Shown: positions 2,884 through 49,101 of the stretch, piece after piece
Position numbering within the stretch: position 1 is the first letter of the stretch
Layout: every line of letters begins with the position of its first letter
Origin: a virus
Virus record (IMG/VR): IMGVR_UViG_3300036401_000045
Coordinates: 1-49,101 of that record
Reading direction: 5' to 3' (one strand)
Length of the DNA: 49,101 nt
Notes under the pieces: model-generated
Told to the model about the DNA's origin: nothing
What the model saw: only the letters and a program-made list of their open reading frames with translations
Databases searched by the model: none
Translations under genes and position numbers: made by a program

Positions 2884-4608
2884 ATGGCAGGACTTTCGCC
2901 AGACCCAAAGGAAGAGGCCTCACCGGGCAACGAATTGACCGCGCAGAAGATTGCTATTCGCCGGCAGGTCGATGACCGACTTCAAGGCCTCCGGGTGTAC
3001 CGTTACTCGTGGTGGGTGCATTGGCGGGAACTGGCGGATTTCATCTTACCGAGGCGCTATAAATGGCTGATCACTCCAAACATGATGAGCCGGGGCAGCC
3101 CGATCAACCAGCACATTCTCGACAGCACTGGCACTATGGCCGCAAGAAATCTCGCAAGCGGTCTCATGTCCGGCATCACAAGCCCGACAAGGCCGTGGTT
3201 CAAGCTAAAGATTGGAAGGCAAGACTCTACGCAGACCTCACCGACCTCATTATGGCTATCGGAATGTGAAAGGATTATGTACCTCATATTCGGGGAGTCC
3301 AACTTTTACAACGCGATGGCTGTGCTGTACTTCGATCTCGTCGTCTTTGGGACCGCCACCATGCTGATCTATGAGGACTTCGACGACGTAATCCACTGCT
3401 GCAATCCCTGCGCGGGCGAGTATTTCCTCGGGGAGAACGACAAGTTCGAGGTGGATACCTTCTATCGGGAGTTCACTCTCACCGTCAGTCAGGTCGTCAA
3501 TCAATTCGGGATCGAGAACTGTTCGACCTCCATCCGGAGTCTTTTCAAGACCGGCGGGTCGAGCCTTGAGAAGGAGATCATCGTCGCTCACGCTATCGAG
3601 CCGAACAACGACGGAAGGAAGCTCGGCATCCCCACCCATTTCAAGTACCGCGAAATCTATTGGGAGTGGGGACAGGCGCAGGAGTTCCTCCTCCTCAAGC
3701 GCGGCTACCACGAGGCCCCAATGATCTGCCCGCGGTGGGATATAGTCTCCAACGATCCGTATGGACGCTCTCCGGCGATGGATGCCCTGCCGGATATCAA
3801 GCAACTCCAGCAGGAGGTCAAGCGCAAGGCACAGGCCATCGACAAGATGGTGAACCCTCCGCTTATCGCGGACGTCCAGCTGAAGAACCAACCCGCGAGC
3901 CTCCTCCCCGGTGGTGTGACCTATGTGACCGGAGTGAACAACGTCGGGATGAAGCCGGTCTATCAGGTTATGCCTCAGCTGAAGGATATGATGGAGGACT
4001 TGAACGAGGTTCGCGACCGGATCGGCAAGACCTTCTTCAACAACCTTTTCCAGAACATCTCGCAGTACGAGCCGAAGTCCAACGTCAGCGCAACCGAGAT
4101 GGACATGAGGCGAAGCGAAGTCCTCGTGATGCTCGGCCCGGTCCTCGAGCGCATCTACGATGAGGGGATCAAACCCACGATCGAGCGGGTCTTTGCGGTT
4201 GCGGCCCGCGCTGGCATTTTGCCTCCGGCCCCTCCCGAAATCCACGGTGAGCCAATTCAGATCGAGTTCGTCTCGATGCTTCAGGCAGCGCAGAGCGCAA
4301 CGCAGACCCAGGGCATCGAAAGGCTCTTGCAGATCGCGGGCTCGTTGGTGTCGGTCGATCCCGCTGTGATGGACAATATCGACATTGACTACGCCTTTGA
4401 CAAGTATTCATCGCTGATGGGCAATGACCCGAAGATGATTAGGTCGCCCGGCGAACTCCAGCAAATCCGCGCCAATCGTGACAGGCAGCAGCAACAGCAA
4501 CAGCAGATCGACAATGCTCAGAAACTCGCGCAGGGCGCACAGACCCTTTCCGAGACGAAGATCGGCGGGGGCAATGCGCTTGAGGCCATGACAGGACAAG
4601 GGCAGTGA
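2884..4608 (+). CDS. Portal / head-to-tail connector protein (T7 gp8 type)
   Basis: Forms the dodecameric portal through which DNA enters and leaves the head. At 574 residues it is of typical size for the T7 gp8-like connector family. Recognisable features are the N-terminal segment around residues 40-75 with WRELADFILPRR, the tract DSTGTMAARNLASGLMSGIT (about 80-99), the segment WDIVSNDPYGRSPAMDALPD, and the late segment NISQYEPKSNVSATEMDMRR. The C-terminus is Gln-rich with a seven-Gln run, probably flexible. It lies directly after TerL and before capsid genes. This connector type is one of the main reasons for calling the phage a podovirus. Confidence 0.92.
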   Translation: MAGLSPDPKEEASPGNELTAQKIAIRRQVDDRLQGLRVYRYSWWVHWRELADFILPRRYKWLITPNMMSRGSPINQHILDSTGTMAARNLASGLMSGITSPTRPWFKLKIGRQDSTQTSPTSLWLSECERIMYLIFGESNFYNAMAVLYFDLVVFGTATMLIYEDFDDVIHCCNPCAGEYFLGENDKFEVDTFYREFTLTVSQVVNQFGIENCSTSIRSLFKTGGSSLEKEIIVAHAIEPNNDGRKLGIPTHFKYREIYWEWGQAQEFLLLKRGYHEAPMICPRWDIVSNDPYGRSPAMDALPDIKQLQQEVKRKAQAIDKMVNPPLIADVQLKNQPASLLPGGVTYVTGVNNVGMKPVYQVMPQLKDMMEDLNEVRDRIGKTFFNNLFQNISQYEPKSNVSATEMDMRRSEVLVMLGPVLERIYDEGIKPTIERVFAVAARAGILPPAPPEIHGEPIQIEFVSMLQAAQSATQTQGIERLLQIAGSLVSVDPAVMDNIDIDYAFDKYSSLMGNDPKMIRSPGELQQIRANRDRQQQQQQQIDNAQKLAQGAQTLSETKIGGGNALEAMTGQGQ

Positions 4609-29127: not shown

Positions 29128-30358
29128 AGTCGGGTTTTGGCAAAGGTATGTAGTGTGGCGAGCCATCTACGAAGGTGAGCTTCAGCTCCTTCGAGTCGCA
29201 CATCGTTTGAATAACCTTGCTGATAGTCCATGAGTCCACTCGGTCTCGAAGGAACGTGACGAGGACTGAGGCGCTGATCGGGGCCTTCCCGTTTTTATTG
29301 TAAAGCCTGATAAGATGGAAATGAAGGTCATCCATGTGACGACCCTCCGTTGTCACTCCTGCTGACACGAATAAGTCTCCCATGTTCGCCTCGGCCTCGA
29401 GAAGCCATCTACGAGCGGTATGGAAATTGTCCAAGGTAATGTTAAGACTGTCGGACTGAGCCGCTGATGCGACCATGCACAGTTTGAGAACGTGGGCCAG
29501 TCGGCGTGTGTTATAATGTGTCAGCTTTCGTTGAGCCGGGACTGGTGGACACAGGTTCGTATTCCAATCTTCAATAGCCTCCATAGCGCGCCCATCCCAG
29601 GTAACCTCACCAGAAAGCTTGTTAATCTTTCGGAGATCAATCGTTAGATCATGGAAGAGCTGCTCGTGTTCGAGGGCATTTTCCCTGTTGCCAAACACAC
29701 TGCCGGGCTTGAACTCACCGGAGAAGATAAAGATCGTTCGCGAGGTAAAGCCTTGGTCCCAGGCTCCATCAGGTAGGGTGCTGTTAAGATAGCTAGGGGT
29801 GGTGCCACCGATGATAGAAAGAAGTGGGAGTTCTATCTTGATATGATTGACCTTGCCAGTGCGGCGGCGCTCCTCGTAGAACTCCCCATCGTAGAGCTTT
29901 GTGAGGGTGTTCATGAAGGCCGGGTCATAAGAGGGGAGGAACACTCCGAGTTCGGACCCGATCACCTGAAGGGAATTGAATATGGTCTTGACCGGCTTGT
30001 AGATGACTCGCGGGGCGAGAACCAAAGAGTCGATTAACGAGGCGGTGGTGACTGACGAGGGTGCGATGTGCATCTCGCTTTCTGAAAGCGGATCGCTGAC
30101 TGACCGGGCCATTCGCTCTGAGCGCTTCAAGACCTCGGATTTGCCAAGGCCGGGCGCTGCGACGAGCACAATGTAAAGGTTAGGGAATAGGCGTGAGCCC
30201 TTGGTAAATGCCCATACCTTGCGTTCCATCGCAGAGGATATAAGTCCTATCGCGGCCCATCGCTGAAAGATCGCCGGGCTTTGAATTGCAGAACAGTTAC
30301 GAATAAAGGACTCTATCCAGTTGGGTAGCCGCCGGGACGATTTGCCTTGTTCTTCCAT
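29117..30358 (-). CDS. DUF3987-like primase/helicase ATPase
   Basis: 413 residues from the ATG at 30358 (aaggg five bases upstream; a GTG two codons earlier is an alternative). A Walker A motif APGLGKSE lies at about 68-75. The opening (PNWIESFIRNCSAIQSPAIF) and FQRWAAIGLIS follow the DUF3987 (YfjI-like) pattern, along with LPLLSIIGGTTPSYLN and TSRTIFIFSGE further on. Such proteins stand in for replicative helicases or primase-helicases in phages. It is the last gene of the leftward replication operon, and it overlaps the polymerase gene by 62 bases. No separate DnaB-like helicase or primase is seen, so this is the likely one. Confidence 0.7.
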   Translation of the reverse strand: MEEQGKSSRRLPNWIESFIRNCSAIQSPAIFQRWAAIGLISSAMERKVWAFTKGSRLFPNLYIVLVAAPGLGKSEVLKRSERMARSVSDPLSESEMHIAPSSVTTASLIDSLVLAPRVIYKPVKTIFNSLQVIGSELGVFLPSYDPAFMNTLTKLYDGEFYEERRRTGKVNHIKIELPLLSIIGGTTPSYLNSTLPDGAWDQGFTSRTIFIFSGEFKPGSVFGNRENALEHEQLFHDLTIDLRKINKLSGEVTWDGRAMEAIEDWNTNLCPPVPAQRKLTHYNTRRLAHVLKLCMVASAAQSDSLNITLDNFHTARRWLLEAEANMGDLFVSAGVTTEGRHMDDLHFHLIRLYNKNGKAPISASVLVTFLRDRVDSWTISKVIQTMCDSKELKLTFVDGSPHYIPLPKPDFIY

Positions 30359-31814
30359 CGCCACCCTTGTATTTCCTTAGACCATCAGGATTGTCGGGGG
30401 CTTCGACTGACCAGTTCCAGCCCGTCTTAGCTTCGGAGGGGATTAAGAGTTCGCGATTGTGAAGAAGTGGAACGGGGACTTGAATGGCTTTAAGGACCTG
30501 AGGTAGGACTGTATCTTCTTGTTCTTCGGGATATTGGATTAGAATTGCATCATGGATTTGGAGAAGCAACTGACAAATTCGGAGTCGCCAGACTTGTAAC
30601 ATTCCTCTGTTAAGAATGTCGCCGACTGATCCCTGCGGATCGTATGCAATGGCTTCTCTGACAGTCGCATCGTCGTTGCGCCTACCAAAAAACCAGCGGC
30701 GGCGGCCAGTAAGAGTAGTAAGATTGCCCGTAGTGAAAAGCTCCTGCGCAACGTGGCCATGCCAGCGCTGGTGAGCGGGGAAGGCGGTGAAGTAGGCAGA
30801 CTGGAAGGCGGCGATAAGTTTCGCGTCGAGCTTTGTATGCTTGGCCATAGTGTAAGGCTTGCCGTTGTAGTTTGTTCCGTGGCCAAGCACCTTAGCCATG
30901 TGTCGATAACTGTGCTGTCGATAGAAAGGTGTCTCAGCCAGTTCTCTGTCACTTTTAAGATCTCCGGTCCAGGCGAGCTGGTTTCCCCATGCGAGCCTAC
31001 AGACGCTCGTATGAAGATCTCCACTTTCACAGGCATCAAGGTATCTCCCATCCTGAAATAAGTTCCACTCGATCGCGCCGACCAGCCGGGACTCGGCTTG
31101 CTCTAGGTCGATGTAAGCGAACTTATGGCCTGGATCAGCAACGAACACCGATCGGAGGCGCTCTTCGATATTTTGGAGATTTGTTCCAGTCCCGAAATCA
31201 CTGAGCGAAGAACTGAACCGGCCTGTGGTTGTGCCCGCAATATTGTAACTAGTTCGCATCCTCCCATCGCTGTCAATTCCCGTCTTGAGGACTCCGATCT
31301 TTTTTCCAATGTCTCTAAGTCCGAGGATATGGCTAACAAGAGGCTGTGCCATAAAGTAATTGTCGAGTTGCTCAAGGGCGTCTCTGTTGACTGTAGGTTC
31401 GTAAAACCCCTTGGCGTTGCGTTTTTTAATCGGTGGTAATCCAAGAACTGTATAAAATAGTTCTCGGAGCTGCTTAGGTGATCGCCAGTTGAGAGCCGGT
31501 ATTCCAATTCCCTCAGATAGAATTCGTTCAAGGTTTCCGGCGATAATTCCGAGCTGGAGTTCGTATTCATGGATTACCTTATCACGAAGCTGCTGGTCCA
31601 CCAAAACGCCTCGAAGCTTCATCTCGAGGACTGGTGCTTGAAGGGCTTTCTCGAACTCGTAAGTGGCGCGGGTCTGGTTGTCAAGCTGAGGCTTGGTCGC
31701 GGCGAGGACCTCGGAGGTCACGCAACAGTCGAGGCCATTATATATCCAGAGCTTCTCCGTTTCGCTGTTGGGCATGGTAAGGACGGAGAGTTCGTGGGTT
31801 TTAATGGCTTTCAC
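30297..31814 (-). CDS. DNA polymerase, family A (polymerase half, with last proofreading motif)
   Basis: 505 residues, GTG start (an in-frame stop lies seven codons upstream; aaagaga precedes it). The N-terminus carries YNGLD (25-29), the Exo III (YxxxD) motif of a 3'-5' exonuclease whose Exo I and II motifs are in another gene, 32832-33842. Polymerase motifs: TTGRFSSS (196-203), motif A AYIDLEQAESR (D236, E241), motif B RHMAKVLGHGTNY (R304, K308, H312, Y316), motif C QIHDAI (H421, D422). Two positions differ from the usual: motif C has HDA instead of HDE, and the residue equivalent to E. coli F762 is His. Both catalytic Asp are kept, so activity is expected. Confidence 0.9.
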   Translation of the reverse strand: MKAIKTHELSVLTMPNSETEKLWIYNGLDCCVTSEVLAATKPQLDNQTRATYEFEKALQAPVLEMKLRGVLVDQQLRDKVIHEYELQLGIIAGNLERILSEGIGIPALNWRSPKQLRELFYTVLGLPPIKKRNAKGFYEPTVNRDALEQLDNYFMAQPLVSHILGLRDIGKKIGVLKTGIDSDGRMRTSYNIAGTTTGRFSSSLSDFGTGTNLQNIEERLRSVFVADPGHKFAYIDLEQAESRLVGAIEWNLFQDGRYLDACESGDLHTSVCRLAWGNQLAWTGDLKSDRELAETPFYRQHSYRHMAKVLGHGTNYNGKPYTMAKHTKLDAKLIAAFQSAYFTAFPAHQRWHGHVAQELFTTGNLTTLTGRRRWFFGRRNDDATVREAIAYDPQGSVGDILNRGMLQVWRLRICQLLLQIHDAILIQYPEEQEDTVLPQVLKAIQVPVPLLHNRELLIPSEAKTGWNWSVEAPDNPDGLRKYKGGDGRTRQIVPAATQLDRVLYS

Positions 31815-32831: not shown

Positions 32832-33842
32832 TTATTCATCCCTCTTAATGGTTGTCTTACCGCGCTGACGCATCAACTTCCATGAGGCCTCGTTAGTGTA
32901 GACCGAGCCCAAGAACGCAAGACCTTTCTCGGACTCGGGTTGCAACGAGTGATGCAACAGCATTGTGTCGTCTTCATAGTTCACGACAGGTATTCCGTAT
33001 CCTTTCCATAGGAAATTGATATCATACAGTCCATTCTGTGCAACTTTTCGCTGTGGCGAAGAGAGGACTTTATTAACATATCGCCAGGCTCGACTTTCAT
33101 CCGTTGCAGTAGGCCAGTAACTTCCATTTGCTGTTCGTGGGTCCACGAAGGGTACAACAATTGCTGAAAGAGGGCCTGGAGCAAATCCAATGCAAGTAAT
33201 TTGTTGACCGGCGGTCTCAATGTCAAAGGAGATTTCTTCGGCGGGCCGGAGAAAGTTGTCATAGTACCACTCCATTTCGTCTAGGGTTGGCTCGATATAG
33301 ATAGTTCGCTCAGGTCGTCGAACCTCGGGAAACTCCGACTCGCGGGCGGCCTTGGTAAAGTCGAGGACGGTGACGGCTCGGAGGTCCCACTGGCGCAAGA
33401 TGGCGGCGGGGTGATAGGTCGGAAGGCACTTGAGCCCCGGAAGTGCGGTAGAAGCAATGACAGTTCCCCTAATCTTGGAGATACCTGTGTTATGTAAAAA
33501 TGCCCAGGCGGCAGTATTACCAAGCAGTATGGCGATGTTGGGTTTAAGATCTCGAAGTTCTTTGACGACTCGCTGAACCTCAGGGAAATACTGCGGGAGA
33601 AGATACTTGCCTGCACGAAGAGGTGGGAAACCGCCCGCCTTCTCCTTCCCGCAAAGGTTCTCAATATCGTTCGACGGGCGCGGGCGCAAGTTGAACACGT
33701 TAGTAAGGAAGCAATCCGCACGGTGTATTCCTCCCTCGTTGAGCATCTTCGTGAGTTCCCAACCGGCGGGGCCGACGAAGGGAGCACGTTCGCGTTCCTC
33801 GTACTCTCCCCACGCCTCCCCGACGATTGCGATCTTAGTCAC
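32832..33842 (-). CDS. Uracil-DNA-glycosylase-like domain fused to 3'-5' exonuclease domain (polymerase N-terminal half)
   Basis: 336 residues from the GTG at 33842, which overlaps the DUF3310 stop. Residues 1-165 follow the UDG superfamily (family 4/5-like) pattern: VGEAWGEYEERERAPFVGPA (7-26) and YHPAAIL (143-149). From about 203 a DEDD exonuclease begins: Exo I FDIET (D207, E209), Exo II QNGLYDINFL (N270, D274), then DDTMLLHHSLQ (291-301). The protein stops at 336, before any Exo III motif; that motif (YNGLD) opens the polymerase gene about 1 kb further on. The UDG part may scan for uracil or be structural. This appears to be the N-terminal half of a UDG-exo-pol polymerase. Confidence 0.82.
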   Translation of the reverse strand: MTKIAIVGEAWGEYEERERAPFVGPAGWELTKMLNEGGIHRADCFLTNVFNLRPRPSNDIENLCGKEKAGGFPPLRAGKYLLPQYFPEVQRVVKELRDLKPNIAILLGNTAAWAFLHNTGISKIRGTVIASTALPGLKCLPTYHPAAILRQWDLRAVTVLDFTKAARESEFPEVRRPERTIYIEPTLDEMEWYYDNFLRPAEEISFDIETAGQQITCIGFAPGPLSAIVVPFVDPRTANGSYWPTATDESRAWRYVNKVLSSPQRKVAQNGLYDINFLWKGYGIPVVNYEDDTMLLHHSLQPESEKGLAFLGSVYTNEASWKLMRQRGKTTIKRDE

Positions 33843-34068
33843 GGCAAAGCCTGTTAATGTACCACTGTGCCTTCTTAAGATCAGCCAACCTCTCTCCCTT
33901 GAGCGGGGCGCGCGAGAGGTAACGAATAGTCTGACCAACGAGGAAGCCATCGACGGCATTGTAGCTCTTGATGATGTCCTCGATGATCTCGATGGTCTCG
34001 AACTTGCCGCCGGTATAGTGTGGCGGGTGGTTAATCATATTAGTTTCAGACTTTTCTTTCTTAGACAT
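33835..34068 (-). CDS. DUF3310-type phage protein
   Basis: 77 residues. NHPPHYTGGKFETIEIIEDI, then VGQTIRYLSRAPLKG and a final LKKAQWYINRL, is the compact pattern of DUF3310, a nucleotide-kinase-associated small phage domain. It is preceded by ggagaaagtga and starts one base after the methyltransferase stop. Role probably in nucleotide or replication metabolism, not defined. Confidence 0.8.
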   Translation of the reverse strand: MSKKEKSETNMINHPPHYTGGKFETIEIIEDIIKSYNAVDGFLVGQTIRYLSRAPLKGERLADLKKAQWYINRLCRD

Positions 34069-35343
34069 TCACTTTCTCCTCAGGGCTCTGGACGTTTTAA
34101 GAGTTCGATTGGCCCCTTCCGCGAACTCTTTATTGATTTCTATCCCAAGAACGTATCGCGCGTTAAGCGACTCAGCCGCTCGCAGCGAACTTCCACTACC
34201 ACAGGTGGGGTCAAGGACAAGACTACTTTCGTCCACAAACATCCTGAAGAAGTTGCGCAGGACTGGTTCGGGTTTGATAGACATATGCTGCGAGCGGTCA
34301 GTCGGCGCAGCGTAAGCATTGCTAATTGGAGCGACAATCTTGCGATCACCTCGTGAACCGAAGAACGCTGTTTCATAAATCCTCCGAGGCCCCCGCGACG
34401 GATCAGGTAAGATGCCCACGTTGTCGGACTTGAGCCAGATTAAAGGGAAAGGATCAAAAAGTATATCGCTATAACGAGTAAAGTGATCGAGGGTAGAATA
34501 GTAATTGTGCATGGAGAACCAAAACATGAAATGACAAGACTCAGTTGTAAGACGATCAAGGTTCCTTGTAAGGCAATTAACCAAATTCCAATAAGTGCTG
34601 TCAGTGTCGGCATAGCCACCATGCGTCGGGGCCGACCCCTGATTAAAGCTGTCAGCGCCGATACCATAAGGGAAATCACAATGGATGAAATTGAAACGAG
34701 GTCCATCGTAAGCTGGAGCCCACTCCAAGAAGCTAGTATTGAGGACACTTTCAATCTCCTCTCCTTCAAGTGGCTTCGCGATGTTCGCGACGGCGCGGAG
34801 TTGGATCAAGGCCTCCTCGTCTTTCCGTGCGCTGGTTCGCTCCGTAATGCCCTTGGCCGTGGAGTACTTTGGAGCCTCAATAACTCTTGGATTACCGGAT
34901 ACCAGTTCCTTGGCAACCACGATCTTGTCAGCAATGGTTTGCTGAGGAATACCCAACGCCACACCAGTATCCTCTTGGGTCCACGTAGGCTCAGAGGCTT
35001 TGCGGAGGTTGTGGTAATTGTAGATCGCCTGGCACTCTTCCTGCCAAGTAAGGTTCGACCTCTTAATGTTCTCCTCGAGTTCGATCTCATGAAGGCGCGA
35101 CTCCTCTAGTTCATCCGTGTATTGAGCAGATATATGAGTATGACCAAGATTAGCACAAGCAGCGAGGCGACGCTCGCCGGCAACCAGGGTGTTCTGTCGG
35201 GTGATAACAATAGGATGAATAAGTCCAAGACGATTGATGCTATCAGCAAGCTCATCAAGATTGGGTAGGTCATTACGTTGCCTCCCTTCGCGATCAACGA
35301 AGATCGAAGCGATTTCAACGCTGTGAAATTGGCCGGAGGTCAT
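34069..35343 (-). CDS. ParB-like domain fused to DNA methyltransferase
   Basis: 424 residues. The N-terminal ParB/Srx-like domain has IHPIVI (42-47), LVAGERRLAAC (53-63) and ENIKRSNLTW (91-100), with a helical HTH-like stretch to about 145. The C-terminal half is an amino-methyltransferase with the catalytic motif first, DFPYG (223-227, a variant of (D/N)PPY), and the AdoMet-binding LDPTCGSGSS later (377-386), the order of beta-class enzymes. It probably methylates N6-adenine or N4-cytosine, perhaps to evade restriction or mark phage DNA. The start overlaps the motif ggtatggtcc. Confidence 0.88.
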   Translation of the reverse strand: MTSGQFHSVEIASIFVDREGRQRNDLPNLDELADSINRLGLIHPIVITRQNTLVAGERRLAACANLGHTHISAQYTDELEESRLHEIELEENIKRSNLTWQEECQAIYNYHNLRKASEPTWTQEDTGVALGIPQQTIADKIVVAKELVSGNPRVIEAPKYSTAKGITERTSARKDEEALIQLRAVANIAKPLEGEEIESVLNTSFLEWAPAYDGPRFNFIHCDFPYGIGADSFNQGSAPTHGGYADTDSTYWNLVNCLTRNLDRLTTESCHFMFWFSMHNYYSTLDHFTRYSDILFDPFPLIWLKSDNVGILPDPSRGPRRIYETAFFGSRGDRKIVAPISNAYAAPTDRSQHMSIKPEPVLRNFFRMFVDESSLVLDPTCGSGSSLRAAESLNARYVLGIEINKEFAEGANRTLKTSRALRRK

Positions 35344-35353
35344 GGTATGGTCC
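35344..35353 (+). promoter_or_regulatory. Intergenic motif GGTATGGYCC, copy at the methyltransferase start
   Basis: Reads ggtatggtcc, directly before the ParB-methyltransferase ATG. Same core as at 99, 41143 (nine of ten), 47118 and 48867. Confidence 0.4.
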
Positions 35354-35603
35354 TAACGGTTCCCGGTTAGTATGTATAGAACCCTGCCCCCGGCGGAGTC
35401 GGAAAACAACACCGGGGACAGGGCGGGCGACAGGTATGGGTGAGTTCCTGTCTCCCATCTGAAGGGCTAGGAAGAGACCTCTAATCGTCTGCCAACCTTT
35501 CGATCAACAGCCTCACGGTCGGTGTTCTGTGAACCGCCGGGGTGGACTCGCACCACCTGTCTCAACCTAACCCCATTTTTAGGCCGTGTTACTCGGGACC
35601 GGC
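35344..35603 (-). ncRNA. Structured intergenic RNA candidate upstream of the ParB-methyltransferase
   Basis: 260 bases without a plausible gene. Read on the - strand it folds into several stems. A 12-pair hairpin (35382-35393 with 35412-35423) has an 18-base loop; a 6-pair hairpin is at 35429-35434 with 35447-35452; a 9-pair stem is at 35578-35586 with 35600-35608. In the 12-pair hairpin the one irregular pair is G-U on the - strand but C-A on the + strand, so the fold favours a - strand transcript. The loop contains UUCCGACUCC, the exact complement of the ribosome-site box GGAGTCGGAA used by several phage genes. It may be a leader, a processed small RNA, or both. I cannot match it to a known RNA family. 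Confidence 0.5.
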
Positions 35604-36041
35604 CTAAACCTTTGCGGTGTTCTTGACCTGCGCGAACACCTGCTTTCCGTCATCGCTGGTCTGATGGGACAGCGTGACCAGAACCTGCTTTCCCATCGAC
35701 TCACCGATCAAAGCACTGCGATTGCCCTTCGAGCGATCCAGACCGAGGTTCTCGAAGAACTGATCGAGACGCCATGCGGCATCGTCAGTCAGCCACATGG
35801 TATGCTTGACCTTCTTATCCTGAAGGGCCTTCTCCTTCAAAGCATCGTGGAGGGCCTGTTGGTCTACGTCGCCTTGAGCCTGGATGGGCTTCATATTGAA
35901 GGTGACGCAGTAGTTGTTGTTCTTCCCCTTCTGGGCGATTTCCGGCTGACCATCCACGATCATGAGGTAAGTGCCGACGGGAAGGGCGGAAGGTGGTTCA
36001 GCGTTTGCGGGTTGGTTGAGGATTTCTTGGAACGAGGCCAT
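35604..36041 (-). CDS. SSB-like / DUF669-like phage protein
   Basis: 145 residues. PPSALPVGTYLMIVDGQPEI, CVTFNMKPIQAQGDVD, KHTMWLTDDAAWRLDQFFEN and a closing VLVTLSHQTSDDGKQVFAQV resemble small OB-fold-type single-strand-binding proteins found in phage recombination operons. Its place between recombination genes and the polymerase supports this. The start follows aaggat. Assignment is by pattern and context. Confidence 0.6.
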   Translation of the reverse strand: MASFQEILNQPANAEPPSALPVGTYLMIVDGQPEIAQKGKNNNYCVTFNMKPIQAQGDVDQQALHDALKEKALQDKKVKHTMWLTDDAAWRLDQFFENLGLDRSKGNRSALIGESMGKQVLVTLSHQTSDDGKQVFAQVKNTAKV

Positions 36042-37671: not shown

Positions 37672-37846
37672 CGGACGGACTTTCATATTCGAGGACGATC
37701 TTGACCTGACCGTAAGGAAGTGGCTCGTTGTCGAGAGGGAAGGAGACTTTGATACCGCCAAGGTCTATATCGACAAAGCGTTCCCCGCGCTCCTCTCGAG
37801 TTACATAGTGGCTTCGGGCGATAATGTGGACGACTCGGTGCTTCAT
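37658..37846 (-). CDS. Small phage protein between nuclease and Sak4-like genes
   Basis: 62 residues, beta-like pattern (HRVVHIIARSHYVTRE; GERFVDIDLGGIKVSFPLDN). The ATG overlaps the nuclease stop (ATGA), and its end overlaps the next start by 14 bases. Unknown function. Confidence 0.6.
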   Translation of the reverse strand: MKHRVVHIIARSHYVTREERGERFVDIDLGGIKVSFPLDNEPLPYGQVKIVLEYESPSDANP

Positions 37847-38820
37847 CGCGGCACCAGCGGGTTCCAGTGTTTCACATAGAAATCCGACTCGAGGAACTTA
37901 TCCCGGACCTCCGGCGACTTCGAGCAGACCTTCCGGAACGGACAGCCGCCGTACTTGTGACAGCTTTTGTCGTTCATTGGCCAGTAGCCTTCGGTGGCGT
38001 AGTGCTCTGCAAGGGCAAACCAGGCCCTAGTGTCGTGGAGCCATTCAGAGATCTGTGTGTCGGTTCGATAGGTAAATCCGCGACTAAAGCGGCTAAACCC
38101 GACAGCAATTTGTACTGCGTCAATAATGACGCCTTTGACTGGTGTTTGATAAATGACCTTAGCAGCCAAAGTATACAGTGACATTTGATTATCTGGATCG
38201 AACTGGTCAAAGTAGTTCGAGGCGACTGTGGAAGAACTAGTCTTGCGGTCCATGACATAGGTGCCTCCGGCGAAGTTGACTACGCGGTCGAGATGGCCGC
38301 AAAGGACGTAAGGGACATAGGTTTGACGTTCCTCATTGAATGAATGGTTGGTCTTTGGCCCCCACTCAAGTTCCATCTTGAAGCTCAGCTCCACTGCCGG
38401 TTGGCCGTTCGCGAGTTGTACCGTCTGCGCGGGGTCGTCCTTGAAGTGGTCGATGTACCAAATCAAGGAGCGGATCAGCGTCTCGCGGGTCTTGTTGGGA
38501 TGATCCGAGGCCCACGGACGAGCCGGGAGTTCCTCGGTGGCCGGGAGCCAGGTCTCTGTCAGCATGAACTCGACAGTGCTTCGCAAGGCATCATCGTGTT
38601 CGTGACCAAGGGAACGGAGATGATCGTAGTGCTCAAGACCGGAATGATACCAGCGGCCGAAGTCCAAGTGAACGCTGTCAGACTTTGTTCGGTAGCCGAG
38701 GATCATTGAGTACTGATACTTGCGCGGGCACTCTTTCAGCCAACCAAGGCTGGTTGAGTCCCAGGCATATTGAATGTGAGTTCCGGGTAGGAAAGGCGAG
38801 TTGATTGTGGACGAGTCCAT
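37843..38820 (-). CDS. PD-(D/E)XK nuclease, RecB/Cas4-like
   Basis: 325 residues. STSLGWLKECPRKYQYSM at the start, FGRWYHSGLEHY, then LCGHLDRVV and VMDRKTSS give the nuclease core (D and K of the DxK strand), followed by QMSLYTLAAKV. Late cysteines (CHKYGGCPFRKVC and the early C in KECPRK) could bind an iron-sulphur cluster, as in Cas4/AddB-like enzymes. It likely makes 3' ends for recombination. The start follows the shared box GGAGTCGGAA (38823-38832). Confidence 0.82.
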   Translation of the reverse strand: MDSSTINSPFLPGTHIQYAWDSTSLGWLKECPRKYQYSMILGYRTKSDSVHLDFGRWYHSGLEHYDHLRSLGHEHDDALRSTVEFMLTETWLPATEELPARPWASDHPNKTRETLIRSLIWYIDHFKDDPAQTVQLANGQPAVELSFKMELEWGPKTNHSFNEERQTYVPYVLCGHLDRVVNFAGGTYVMDRKTSSSTVASNYFDQFDPDNQMSLYTLAAKVIYQTPVKGVIIDAVQIAVGFSRFSRGFTYRTDTQISEWLHDTRAWFALAEHYATEGYWPMNDKSCHKYGGCPFRKVCSKSPEVRDKFLESDFYVKHWNPLVPR

Positions 38821-40413: not shown

Positions 40414-40420
40414 CCAAAGG

Positions 40421-40492
40421 CACCAACAGCGGGATTTGAACCCACGACCTTCTGATCCAGTATCAGACGCTCTACCTTTGAGCTATGTTGAA
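40421..40492 (-). tRNA. tRNA-like gene, anticodon CUG (Gln)
   Basis: 72 bases with a cloverleaf. The acceptor stem has five good pairs, a G-U and an end mismatch. U8-A9 are present, the D stem is GCTC/GAGC, the anticodon stem TCTGA/TCAGA with a seven-base loop TACTGGA, the variable loop five bases, and the T arm GTGGG-TTCAAAT-CCCGC. The anticodon by position is CUG (Gln). Position 33, almost always U, is A here. No CCA is encoded. The protein frame across it on the other strand shows the familiar false peptide of a tRNA. It could be a working phage tRNA with an odd loop, or a decaying one. Confidence 0.75.
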
Positions 40493-46257: not shown

Positions 46258-46601
46258 AGGCCCAACTCCTTTAGGAACTGTTCGGCCTCGGCCTTTTCAG
46301 TCGCAGAGACTTGTTTAGTTTCTTGCATTGCCCTCAGCAACTCATTATACCTTTTGTCGTTAACGAGTGCCCGCTCGACCTGGTGACGAGTTGGCGCGCC
46401 GTTGGTGCTGAGATAGTGCCGCTCGTTCTCGGTTCGCTGACGGAGGATCTTGAGCGCCACGCCAAGACCGATCTCATTGTTTGGGAAGCTGACGCTGTGC
46501 TCCCCGGCCCCTTCCATAGGGCTGGGGAAGCCGAGCCAGATCTTGTCGCCCGCAATCCAGATGTGGGCGGCGTAAGAGGGGATGGGATATTTGTCTGTCA
46601 T
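46254..46601 (-). CDS. Phage protein of unknown function
   Basis: 115 residues from the ATG at 46601 (overlaps the preceding stop, ATGA). The first half is beta-like (YAAHIWIAGDKIWLGFPSPM), the second helical (NERHYLSTNGAPTRHQVERA; AEQFLKELGL). The end AEAEQFLKELGL is echoed in the 47437 protein (AEAFLKSIGL), suggesting a shared C-terminal tail. Confidence 0.6.
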   Translation of the reverse strand: MTDKYPIPSYAAHIWIAGDKIWLGFPSPMEGAGEHSVSFPNNEIGLGVALKILRQRTENERHYLSTNGAPTRHQVERALVNDKRYNELLRAMQETKQVSATEKAEAEQFLKELGL

Positions 46602-46816
46602 GCCCGCCTCCGAAAGAGCGCCGAAAACCCGCACTCGCGGATAATCGTTGTCTCTTTGCACTCTTCGCAGATACCGGCCCGAAAGAAGCGATCAAACTCG
46701 GCCATTGTCTGGCGCGAGCCACAATGCGAGCAGGTCCATTTCTGGAGGATCTGCCCGCCCTCGTCGATCACGGCCTGAGCCATGACGGCGCAGTCGAGGA
46801 TATTGATGTCCCTCAT
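46598..46816 (-). CDS. Small zinc-ribbon phage protein
   Basis: 72 residues from the ATG at 46816 (ATGA overlap). CSHCGSRQTM and CEEC, about 20 residues apart, form a four-Cys zinc ribbon. Common small phage protein type; function unknown. Confidence 0.65.
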   Translation of the reverse strand: MRDINILDCAVMAQAVIDEGGQILQKWTCSHCGSRQTMAEFDRFFRAGICEECKETTIIRECGFSALFRRRA

Positions 46817-47031
46817 TGGGTACCTGCCCAATCACGGAGGGCCTGTGCCGCCTCGGCCAGTTGATTGCGTTTGAAGGTCTTGCCTGTGATGGCGGTGACG
46901 ACCCGCAGCATATTACGGGGCGAATAGGCCCTGTTGATCTTGACCTTGTGCTGCGCGTAGAACTCGAGACCCTTCGCGACTGCGAGGGCCTGATATACCC
47001 GTATGCCGGGGCCTGTGATAGTTAGAGACAT
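46813..47031 (-). CDS. Small phage protein under a strong promoter
   Basis: 72 residues from the ATG at 47031, nine bases after the ggag of the shared box. It reads SLTITGPGIRVYQALAVAKG, then LEFYAQHKVKINRAYSPRNM and a helical end. First gene after the promoter at 47060-47088, so it leads the long leftward cluster. Unknown function; the basic middle could bind nucleic acid. Confidence 0.65.
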   Translation of the reverse strand: MSLTITGPGIRVYQALAVAKGLEFYAQHKVKINRAYSPRNMLRVVTAITGKTFKRNQLAEAAQALRDWAGTQ

Positions 47032-47210: not shown

Positions 47211-47423
47211 TTAGCGCCACTCCCCATGATCGCCGCCGTGAGAGATGAATGTCAATTTGCCATTCTTGTCCCACATATCGGTAATCCGCTCGTCTCGAAC
47301 CGCACCGATCTTCCAACCGTCCGGTAGGTCCTGTAATGCCGCATCAAGTCTTGATTTGGCAATACCAGTTGCCCATCGGGCAATAGTGCTGTTCGGTCTG
47401 AATAGTTCGTACTTTGTTTTCAT
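47211..47423 (-). CDS. Small phage protein
   Basis: 70 residues from the ATG at 47423, behind a GGAGTCGGAA box (47426-47435). KYELFRPNSTIARWATGIAK, then LDAALQDLPDGWKIGAVRDE and a polar end. Soluble, unknown function. Confidence 0.6.
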   Translation of the reverse strand: MKTKYELFRPNSTIARWATGIAKSRLDAALQDLPDGWKIGAVRDERITDMWDKNGKLTFISHGGDHGEWR

Positions 47424-47821: not shown

Positions 47822-48016
47822 TTAGGACTCCCACTTGAACGGCGATTGAAACGGGCACTCGCCAAAGGCCGCGACATTGGCTCGCATTTCGGTTTCAGTC
47901 ATAACGTGCCGATCAAAGTCCGCGCCAATATCATACTCTTGCGCGGCCTTTTCCGACTCGAATGGGCCGACGAATACAGTGTCCATTGGTGATATCACCA
48001 GTATGTAATAGTTCAT
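47822..48016 (-). CDS. Small phage protein (MNYYILVISPMDTVFVGPF type)
   Basis: 64 residues: NYYILVISPMDTVFVGPFES, then DRHVMTETEMRANVAAFGEC and a Pro-rich end. This pattern is common in small phage accessory genes. It follows a GGAGTCGGAA box (48019-48028). Unknown function. Confidence 0.65.
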   Translation of the reverse strand: MNYYILVISPMDTVFVGPFESEKAAQEYDIGADFDRHVMTETEMRANVAAFGECPFQSPFKWES

Positions 48017-48138: not shown

Positions 48139-48148
48139 TTCCGACTCC
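48139..48148 (-). promoter_or_regulatory. Orphan GGAGTCGGAA box
   Basis: The same ten bases, but followed by ATA where other copies have ATG, and then a stop (ATA ACG CCA TAA). It lies just after the hairpin at 48153-48178. It may mark a lost gene or act as a decoy site. Confidence 0.5.
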
Positions 48149-48223: not shown

Positions 48224-48700
48224 TTACTCCGCCGCGATGGGCAAGTCCCCCGCGTCGATTTCGACGTTCAGTGCCTTTGCCCGTTCCACGTTTTCGCGGG
48301 CCGTGGCCATGAACTTTTCGATATTGGCAACTGCCTTTTCGCGAATGGCCTTTGCATCGTAATCCGCCGGTTTCTTTCCGGCCTTTTTGATCGCGGCGTG
48401 AACTGCTTTTGTGGCCAGTTTGATTGCTTCTGACCGGACTGGATCACGTTCCCCGCCACTCGCGGTGCGAACGTCCCCGGCATACATCGCGGCGAGTTTC
48501 TTTTCCGCAACCGCGCGGGACTCGGCCATTACGTCCCCGCCCGCCCCGACCTTTTCCGCAGTCACGCTTGCGTGCGAGTCCATAAGGATATTACGCAGTC
48601 CGATTTTGGCGATATGGGCCGCGACCGGGCCGAGTTTATCAAAGCCGAGTTGATCCGTGTTAACGTCCAACTCAATACCTTTTCCGATATTAACCAACAT
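48224..48700 (-). CDS. First leftward gene; paralogue of 40570-41079
   Basis: 158 residues from the ATG at 48700, behind a GGAGTCGGAA box and a sigma70-like promoter. The shared block is GGERDPVRSEAIKLATKAVH, AAIKKAGKKP and AIREKAVANIEKF (compare 40570-41079). The N-terminus (LVNIGKGIELDVNTDQLGFD) is unique. As the first leftward gene it is probably expressed very early and strongly. Function unknown. Confidence 0.7.
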   Translation of the reverse strand: MLVNIGKGIELDVNTDQLGFDKLGPVAAHIAKIGLRNILMDSHASVTAEKVGAGGDVMAESRAVAEKKLAAMYAGDVRTASGGERDPVRSEAIKLATKAVHAAIKKAGKKPADYDAKAIREKAVANIEKFMATARENVERAKALNVEIDAGDLPIAAE

Positions 48701-48877: not shown

Positions 48878-48971
48878 ACCGCGCCCCGGTGAGTATGGGC
48901 GTATGCCCACCATAACCCCACCATTGCCACCATTCGCCGTGTGTGCCATATCGGCCACTCTTTCTTTTCTT

Positions 48972-48995
48972 AAAAAAAAAAAAAAAAAAAAAAAA
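48972..48995. repeat. 24-nt poly(A) tract at the genome junction
   Basis: An uninterrupted run of 24 A follows a pyrimidine-rich stretch (tttcttttctt). The left end of the window shows the last 21 A of the same run. It lies in the middle of the divergent control region, between the leaders of the leftward and rightward operons. It could be a bent or easily melted element, a replication or packaging landmark, or a trace of A-tailed physical ends joined during library preparation. The sequence alone cannot decide. Confidence 0.85.
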
Positions 48996-49101
48996 CTGAG
49001 TAAGAAACGATGCAGCATCCGAGCCATACTTATCAATTAATGTGACAATGGTGGGGTAATGGTGGGGAACTCGGTATGGCCCCGCCACTTGCGAACCGTT
49101 C
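48975..49101. repeat. Terminal redundancy of the contig (right copy)
   Basis: Identical to 1-127. See the left copy for interpretation. Confidence 0.9.

Follow-up and report, generated by a model that had tools for sequence, protein, structure and literature searches.

A phage hairpin whose loop complements, and covaries with, ribosome sites of several of that phage's own genes

A stable hairpin (H1) in the 260-base non-coding gap (35344-35603) that separates an SSB-like gene from a ParB-N/N6-N4 methylase gene carries in its loop the complement of a box that forms the ribosome site of several genes of the same phage, and loop and boxes change together among related phages. The window analysed, 49,101 bases long, comprises an entire virus record. 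The hairpin, its strand, the complementarity, the placement of the boxes and their covariation with the loop are read directly from the sequence. That one loop would pair, RNA to RNA, with many phage ribosome sites is well supported by these comparisons, while translational repression is inferred as the natural consequence of such pairing, without expression data. Masking of the ribosome sites of several own-phage genes by the hairpin seed, lowering translation as a feedback or timing switch, is judged highly probable, although repression, timing and action in trans are all inferences made with no transcript data and no host.

The box GGAGTCGGAA is found six times on the - strand of the window (Table 1), where 0.18 copies are expected, and none of 100 shuffles reaches the seven copies counted on both strands. 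All six positions given in the initial annotation were recovered exactly. Five of the boxes are Shine-Dalgarno sequences, as had been claimed, with 11-13 bases from box start to an ORF-opening ATG; behind the sixth (48139-48148), which has no start codon, there is perhaps a decayed gene. The lone + strand copy of GGAGTCGGAA is the complement carried on the - strand by the loop of H1, confirming that this hairpin holds the only complement of the box. Predicted duplexes between boxes and loop in the window range from -17.5 to -19.3 kcal/mol. H1 can be counted as 14 pairs with a 16-base loop or, as originally described, as 12 pairs with an 18-base loop; its stem has a G-U pair on the - strand where the + strand would have C-A, and the gap as a whole folds more stably than shuffled sequence (z = -3.9).

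Table 1 Hairpin, boxes and possible extra target in the window, and loops with their boxes in related phages (position and strand for the window only; pairs with the loop are predicted).
Feature	Position	Strand	Description
Hairpin H1	35381..35424	-	5' arm 35411-35424; loop 35395-35410 (GUUGUUUUCCGACUCC); 3' arm 35381-35394
Loop segment UUCCGACUCC	35395..35404	-	Box complement (anti-Shine-Dalgarno seed); covaries with boxes between phages
Remainder of non-coding gap	35425..35603	-	Branched fold; unlike even in 83% relative L011
Box GGAGTCGGAA	38823..38832	-	Ribosome site, PD-(D/E)XK nuclease (37843-38820); 11 pairs with loop
Possible extra target GGAGTTGGGC	46260..46269	-	Precedes 48-aa ORF; 9 pairs with loop, G-U allowed
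Box GGAGTCGGAA	47035..47044	-	Ribosome site, 72-aa gene (46813-47031); 11 pairs with loop
Box GGAGTCGGAA	47426..47435	-	Ribosome site, 70-aa gene (47211-47423); 11-12 pairs with loop
Box GGAGTCGGAA	48019..48028	-	Ribosome site, 64-aa gene (47822-48016); 10 pairs with loop
Sixth box GGAGTCGGAA	48139..48148	-	Start codon absent downstream
Box GGAGTCGGAA	48702..48711	-	Ribosome site, 158-aa early gene (48224-48700)
G010			Loop GAGUAGACUCC; boxes GGAGTCTA (four)
G012			Loop GUUUGGACUCC; boxes GGAGTCCAA (four), GGAGTCCAGAC
G026			Loop GUGCUGACUCC; boxes GGAGTCAG (seven)
G028			Loop AGACUGCGACUCC; boxes GGAGTCGCA (two), GGAGTCGC (one)
G029			Loop GGUUUCGACUCC; boxes GGAGTCGAA(A) (six), GGAGTCGAT (one)
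G032			Loop AGCUUCGACUCC; boxes GGAGTCGAA(G) (three)
L119			Loop AUUCGUGACUCC; GGAGTCACG at four ribosome sites
L046			Loop GGCAGACUCC; GGAGTCTGCC at two ribosome sites, GGAGTCTGAC at one
L041			Loop GGGGCUCC; box GGAGCCCT (also given as GGAGCCCU)

Upstream of the hairpin, the branched fold of the remaining gap is closed by a helix (GGGGUUAGG...CCUAGCCCU), includes a T-arm-like hairpin (GGUGG-UGCGAGU-CCACC) and is missing in L011. Around the hairpin (35250-35900 of the window) a scan detected neither promoter- nor terminator-like sites, which leaves a separate small transcript undemonstrated, and the test for an intrinsic terminator found no U run after the H1 stem in the window. The adjoining - strand gene (34069-35343) fuses a ParB N-terminal domain to an N6/N4 DNA methylase domain; it is widespread in uncultured phages, with isolates only ~27% identical. 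Also on the - strand, a uracil-DNA-glycosylase domain and a 3'-5' exonuclease in one gene, with a separate family A polymerase, constitute a split polymerase (32832-33959 and 30297-31814), and a tRNA-Gln (CUG) lies in the early block (40419-40492); in the relative L144 a tRNA is found directly behind the hairpin. Near the record end (~48970-49030) a long homopolymer run, through which two ORFs read FFFFFFFF, is perhaps an assembly artefact or the true end.

Relatives were collected as ~130 loci, all uncultured, in scans of IMG/VR with UvrD, SSB and ParB-methylase proteins. The hairpin region was unmatched by DNA in INPHARED phage records, where ParB-methylase and UvrD gave distant matches only; there is no close isolate and hence no isolate with a known host. 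Searching IMG/VR with the hairpin DNA pattern returned near copies only. L010 is a near copy of the window, and L011 (83% ParB identity) has the identical loop sequence UUUUCCGACUCC on an altered stem, in a gap that is otherwise unlike. In that gap an ORF between hairpin and ParB gene (3637-4030) resembles, by eye only, an HNH homing endonuclease, which suggests that the gap is an insertion site.

Structural counterparts of H1 were identified in ~40 related loci, and in many relatives a search blind to the boxes found hairpins with a loop ending in ACUCC at the equivalent position or close to it. As the initial collection used an ACUCC filter, other loop kinds would be missed. The stem score is met by 22 of 27 chosen loops vs 1.2% of other same-strand ACUCC sites, but these 27 were picked by eye from hairpin lists and the difference alone is not a test. 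Among the 27 hairpins, stem sequences differ and pairing is kept (344 pairs, 67 of them G-U, and a single A-C mismatch), and the fold on the gene strand beats its complement in 23; the strand-specific fold, first inferred from one G-U pair in the window, thus holds family-wide. The hairpin is followed by a second GC-rich one in a group of 11, where compensatory changes affect 12 of 20 consensus pairs and, in most members, the 5' arm shares sequence with the end of the SSB gene. A single MAFFT alignment of all hairpins did not line up the stems, and the subgroup was modelled instead; doubtful hairpins (G021, G022, G024 and G035) were excluded from the main statistics. On the G030 contig (~20296-20330; L195 ~296-330), the anti-Shine-Dalgarno hairpin is followed by ATTTTTT at the end of a gene block, like an intrinsic terminator with the seed as its loop.

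The 5' half of the loop is variable between phages, with 19 specificities. In each phage, ribosome sites beginning with GGAGT were compared with that phage's loop. Matches of at least 8 nt between ribosome sites and the phage's own loop number 50 in 24 phages, compared with 8.6 expected with shuffled loops (maximum 30 in 5000 shuffles). GGAGTC is the most used GGAGNN site in these phages; at the 100 ribosome sites (30 phages) that contain it, the next one, two and three bases match the own loop in 75, 58 and 37 cases, against shuffled-loop expectations of 30, 9.5 and 3.9, and none of 20,000 shuffles is as high. For the two-base match, shuffling gives 9.5 +/- 4.9 with a maximum of 40 in 20,000, and the expectation raised by the initial annotation, that loop and boxes should change together in related phages, is thereby strongly upheld. 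Of 43 gene-strand copies of the phages' own 9-mer boxes, 38 are ribosome sites; three copies fall on the other strand (2 and 7 in the reversed-box control). A duplex energy test agrees at strong cut-offs and is weak at a generous cut-off (-11). In nearly all sites the pairing covers GGAG at the normal Shine-Dalgarno distance, and almost every box is located on the 5' side of the hairpin within the early block. Natural loop/box pairs in relatives include ...CUGACUCC with GGAGUCAG and ...UUCGACUCC with GGAGUCGAA (see also Table 1).

Homologous genes carry different boxes that follow the loop. Homologues of the 158-aa gene, some of them remote (17-51% identity), have the sites GGAGTCGAAAA (G001), GGAGTCTA (G010), GGAGTCCAAG (G012), GGAGTCAAG (G025), GGAGTCAG (G026) and GGAGTCAC (G030), each complementing its own phage's loop over at least 8 bases. 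With the window left out, 6 of 12 homologues match their own loop by at least 8 bases, where 0.9 are expected and none of 20,000 permutations is as high. Nuclease orthologues also match their own loops (p = 0.01), and a 76-aa gene before SSB behaves in the same way, its box switching with the loop. Many target orthologues have no box at all, and the G005 nuclease site does not fit the G005 loop. The 158-aa protein itself has no convincing relative in Pfam, PHROG or PDB, and its structure model is of moderate confidence (pLDDT 79, pTM 0.48). On a maximum-likelihood ParB-methylase tree of 30 phages, used as proxy for the phage tree, the 19 loop specificities need at least 24 changes, no fewer than shuffled labels; loop identity is thus almost independent of ancestry, so that common descent does not account for the matches and the permutation tests hold as fair comparisons.

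A covariance model built from the group with two hairpins identified loci outside its training set, in which loops were read first and boxes sought afterwards. In this structure-only set of six members, a two-base match is seen at 8 of 20 GGAGTC sites, where 1.8 would be expected, and L119, L046 and L058 are the only contributors. These members appear to give partly independent support for loop-box matching, and L041 suggests that the fifth core base may also change with the loop. No convincing boxes for their own loops were found in L108, L070 and L078. L108 (IMGVR_UViG_3300010398_000063) has the loop AGCGACUCC, yet its boxes GGAGTCGAAAA and GGAGTCGAAC (5354, 5825, 14561) fit the loop of G001, a 79% relative, making it a possible intermediate of a specificity switch. 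Strong hairpins without a matching box in the available sequence are those of the group with loop AUUGACUCC (G015, G016 and G020; expected box GGAGUCAAU, sequence possibly incomplete) and of G006 and G018. In the close relative G039, which has GGAGTCGG at four ribosome sites, no complement was found in a gene-strand hairpin; the scan did not pick up the ParB gene of this phage, and the absence cannot be judged.

In the mechanism proposed here, a gene-strand transcript between the SSB-like and ParB-methylase genes would form a stable hairpin whose loop leaves an anti-Shine-Dalgarno seed of 10-12 nt free to pair. Its partners would be extended Shine-Dalgarno boxes, GGAGU followed by a tail that differs from phage to phage, in front of several of the phage's own genes. 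Most of these genes are located 5' of the hairpin within the leftward early block to which it also belongs, and pairing would hide their ribosome sites and reduce translation. Pairing over GGAG at Shine-Dalgarno distance blocks 30S binding in bacterial initiation. Lying late in the early block, the hairpin would be made after its targets, hence a feedback or timing switch. ACUCC would be invariant because the targets need a Shine-Dalgarno sequence, and the free part of the loop may drift, or be driven, to new specificities with the boxes following, leaving a circuit private to each phage. The initial annotation had already read the element as a translational regulon: the pairing on which that reading depended stands, now joined by covariation and strand bias, whereas a discrete small RNA, action in trans and repression have not been demonstrated. 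The larger proposal of a phage-wide regulon, in which one hairpin with a fast-evolving 'password' is, together with its matching ribosome-site tails, orthogonal to the circuits of co-infecting relatives, like RNA-based immunity specificity in phages where no integrase was detected, and times early-gene shut-off, has about even chances.

Pairing could instead take place in cis, within one long polycistronic transcript whose translation or decay it shapes, with no separate small RNA. Hairpin and boxes do lie on one strand of one gene block, and both the overlap of 5' arm and SSB gene end (group 1) and the failure of the scan to detect any promoter or terminator beside H1 are in keeping with this, but distances between hairpin and boxes reach 13 kb, the G030 hairpin with its ATTTTTT ends a gene block like the 3' end of a small RNA, and one loop facing up to seven boxes favours a diffusible RNA; pairing in cis is possible, if somewhat doubtful. 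The consequence of pairing is another matter, as the sign of regulation is not readable from sequence alone: the boxes might be sponges for the hairpin RNA, a role that would suit the box without a gene behind it, or pairing might stabilise or activate the mRNAs. Either is improbable given that GGAG itself is covered, at normal Shine-Dalgarno distance, in nearly all sites.

Two further readings dispense with RNA-RNA pairing. The box might be bound, as DNA or RNA, by a phage protein such as a RegA-like translational repressor or the ParB-like neighbour, with the hairpin as an inverted-repeat operator, given that the stem is an inverted repeat and adjoins a ParB-N domain gene in the window. However, the boxes have a single orientation and sit at ribosome sites, the hairpin displays the complement and not the box, stem sequence is free where pairing is kept, with G-U on one strand only, and matching boxes persist in G025, G028, G029 and G030, where 3-6 kb separate the hairpin from the ParB gene; nor would a protein site alter box and loop complementarily in ~ten specificities, which leaves this reading very unlikely. 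A parS-type or operator DNA site was also considered as a class for the element and rejected, as the stem sequence is unconserved, the orientation is always the same and the hairpin can be as far as 6 kb from ParB. Coincidence or shared ancestry, i.e. one ribosome-site sequence reused by duplication and matched by a hairpin by chance, would profit from the frequent agreement of ACUCC with GGAGU alone and from the prevalence of GGAGTC, but is left with almost no room by the permutation tests conditioned on GGAGTC, the homologous-gene tests, the unclustered loop label and the partly independent members.

Masking of ribosome sites by a hairpin loop belongs to a kind of antisense RNA that is already known (P1 c4, sX13). 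Of the marks of a multi-target base-pairing regulatory RNA, three are present: a seed whose complementarity to ribosome sites in several mRNAs exceeds chance, covariation of seed and target sites in relatives, and a conserved structure exposing the seed on the coding strand. As to a promoter or processing and a terminator giving a discrete transcript, the window scan showed no such promoter or terminator, and a T run follows the G030 hairpin. New would be the phage-wide regulon with fast-switching specificity. The Rfam scan that the initial annotation had proposed matched no family; the C4 antisense RNA gave no match at gathering score in the window or seven relatives, and with the sX13 (RF02232) covariance model the element scores 17 bits vs a cut-off of 50 (E = 0.44) and is not a member. 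Loop sequences of the c4 RNA of P1/P7 pair with a phage mRNA ribosome site and underlie heteroimmunity between related phages (PMC12197685). The likeness is that of a phage-coded RNA with its loop directed against a phage ribosome site, but c4 has one target (ant) and acts in the immunity of temperate phages, whereas here a loop faces up to seven genes and no integrase was found in nine genomes (controls positive). In sX13 of Xanthomonas, S. aureus RNAIII and H. pylori RNAs, C-rich loops at the tips of stable stems pair with G-rich motifs in many mRNAs, close to their start codons (PMC3771888); sX13-type RNAs are chromosomal and use generic 4C/4G motifs, in contrast to a single loop with a 10-12 nt phage-specific seed and same-phage targets. 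P22 sar, lambda OOP and aQ are phage RNAs that lower phage gene expression by pairing (PMC12197685), with one gene each, unlike a same-strand element with many separated targets. The phage-coded base-pairing small RNAs VpdS, PreS and 24B_1 (PMC12197685) act mainly on host or single phage genes and are Hfq-linked. The targets of phage antisense RNAs in that review are one phage gene or host genes, and a covarying within-phage set of ribosome sites is not described there (PMC12197685). A literature search, with most subscription papers outside its reach, found no description of this element.

If the proposal is true, a phage RNA would control a set of the phage's own genes via their Shine-Dalgarno sequences. 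Synthetic biology could draw on the relatives for a naturally evolved set of orthogonal loop/ribosome-site pairs, and their repeated natural compensatory changes are evidence for RNA-RNA pairing of a sort seldom available for small RNAs. The family is a ready test case for how one regulator and many targets shift specificity together, and the hairpin is a possible agent of early gene shut-off in phages that yielded no integrase.
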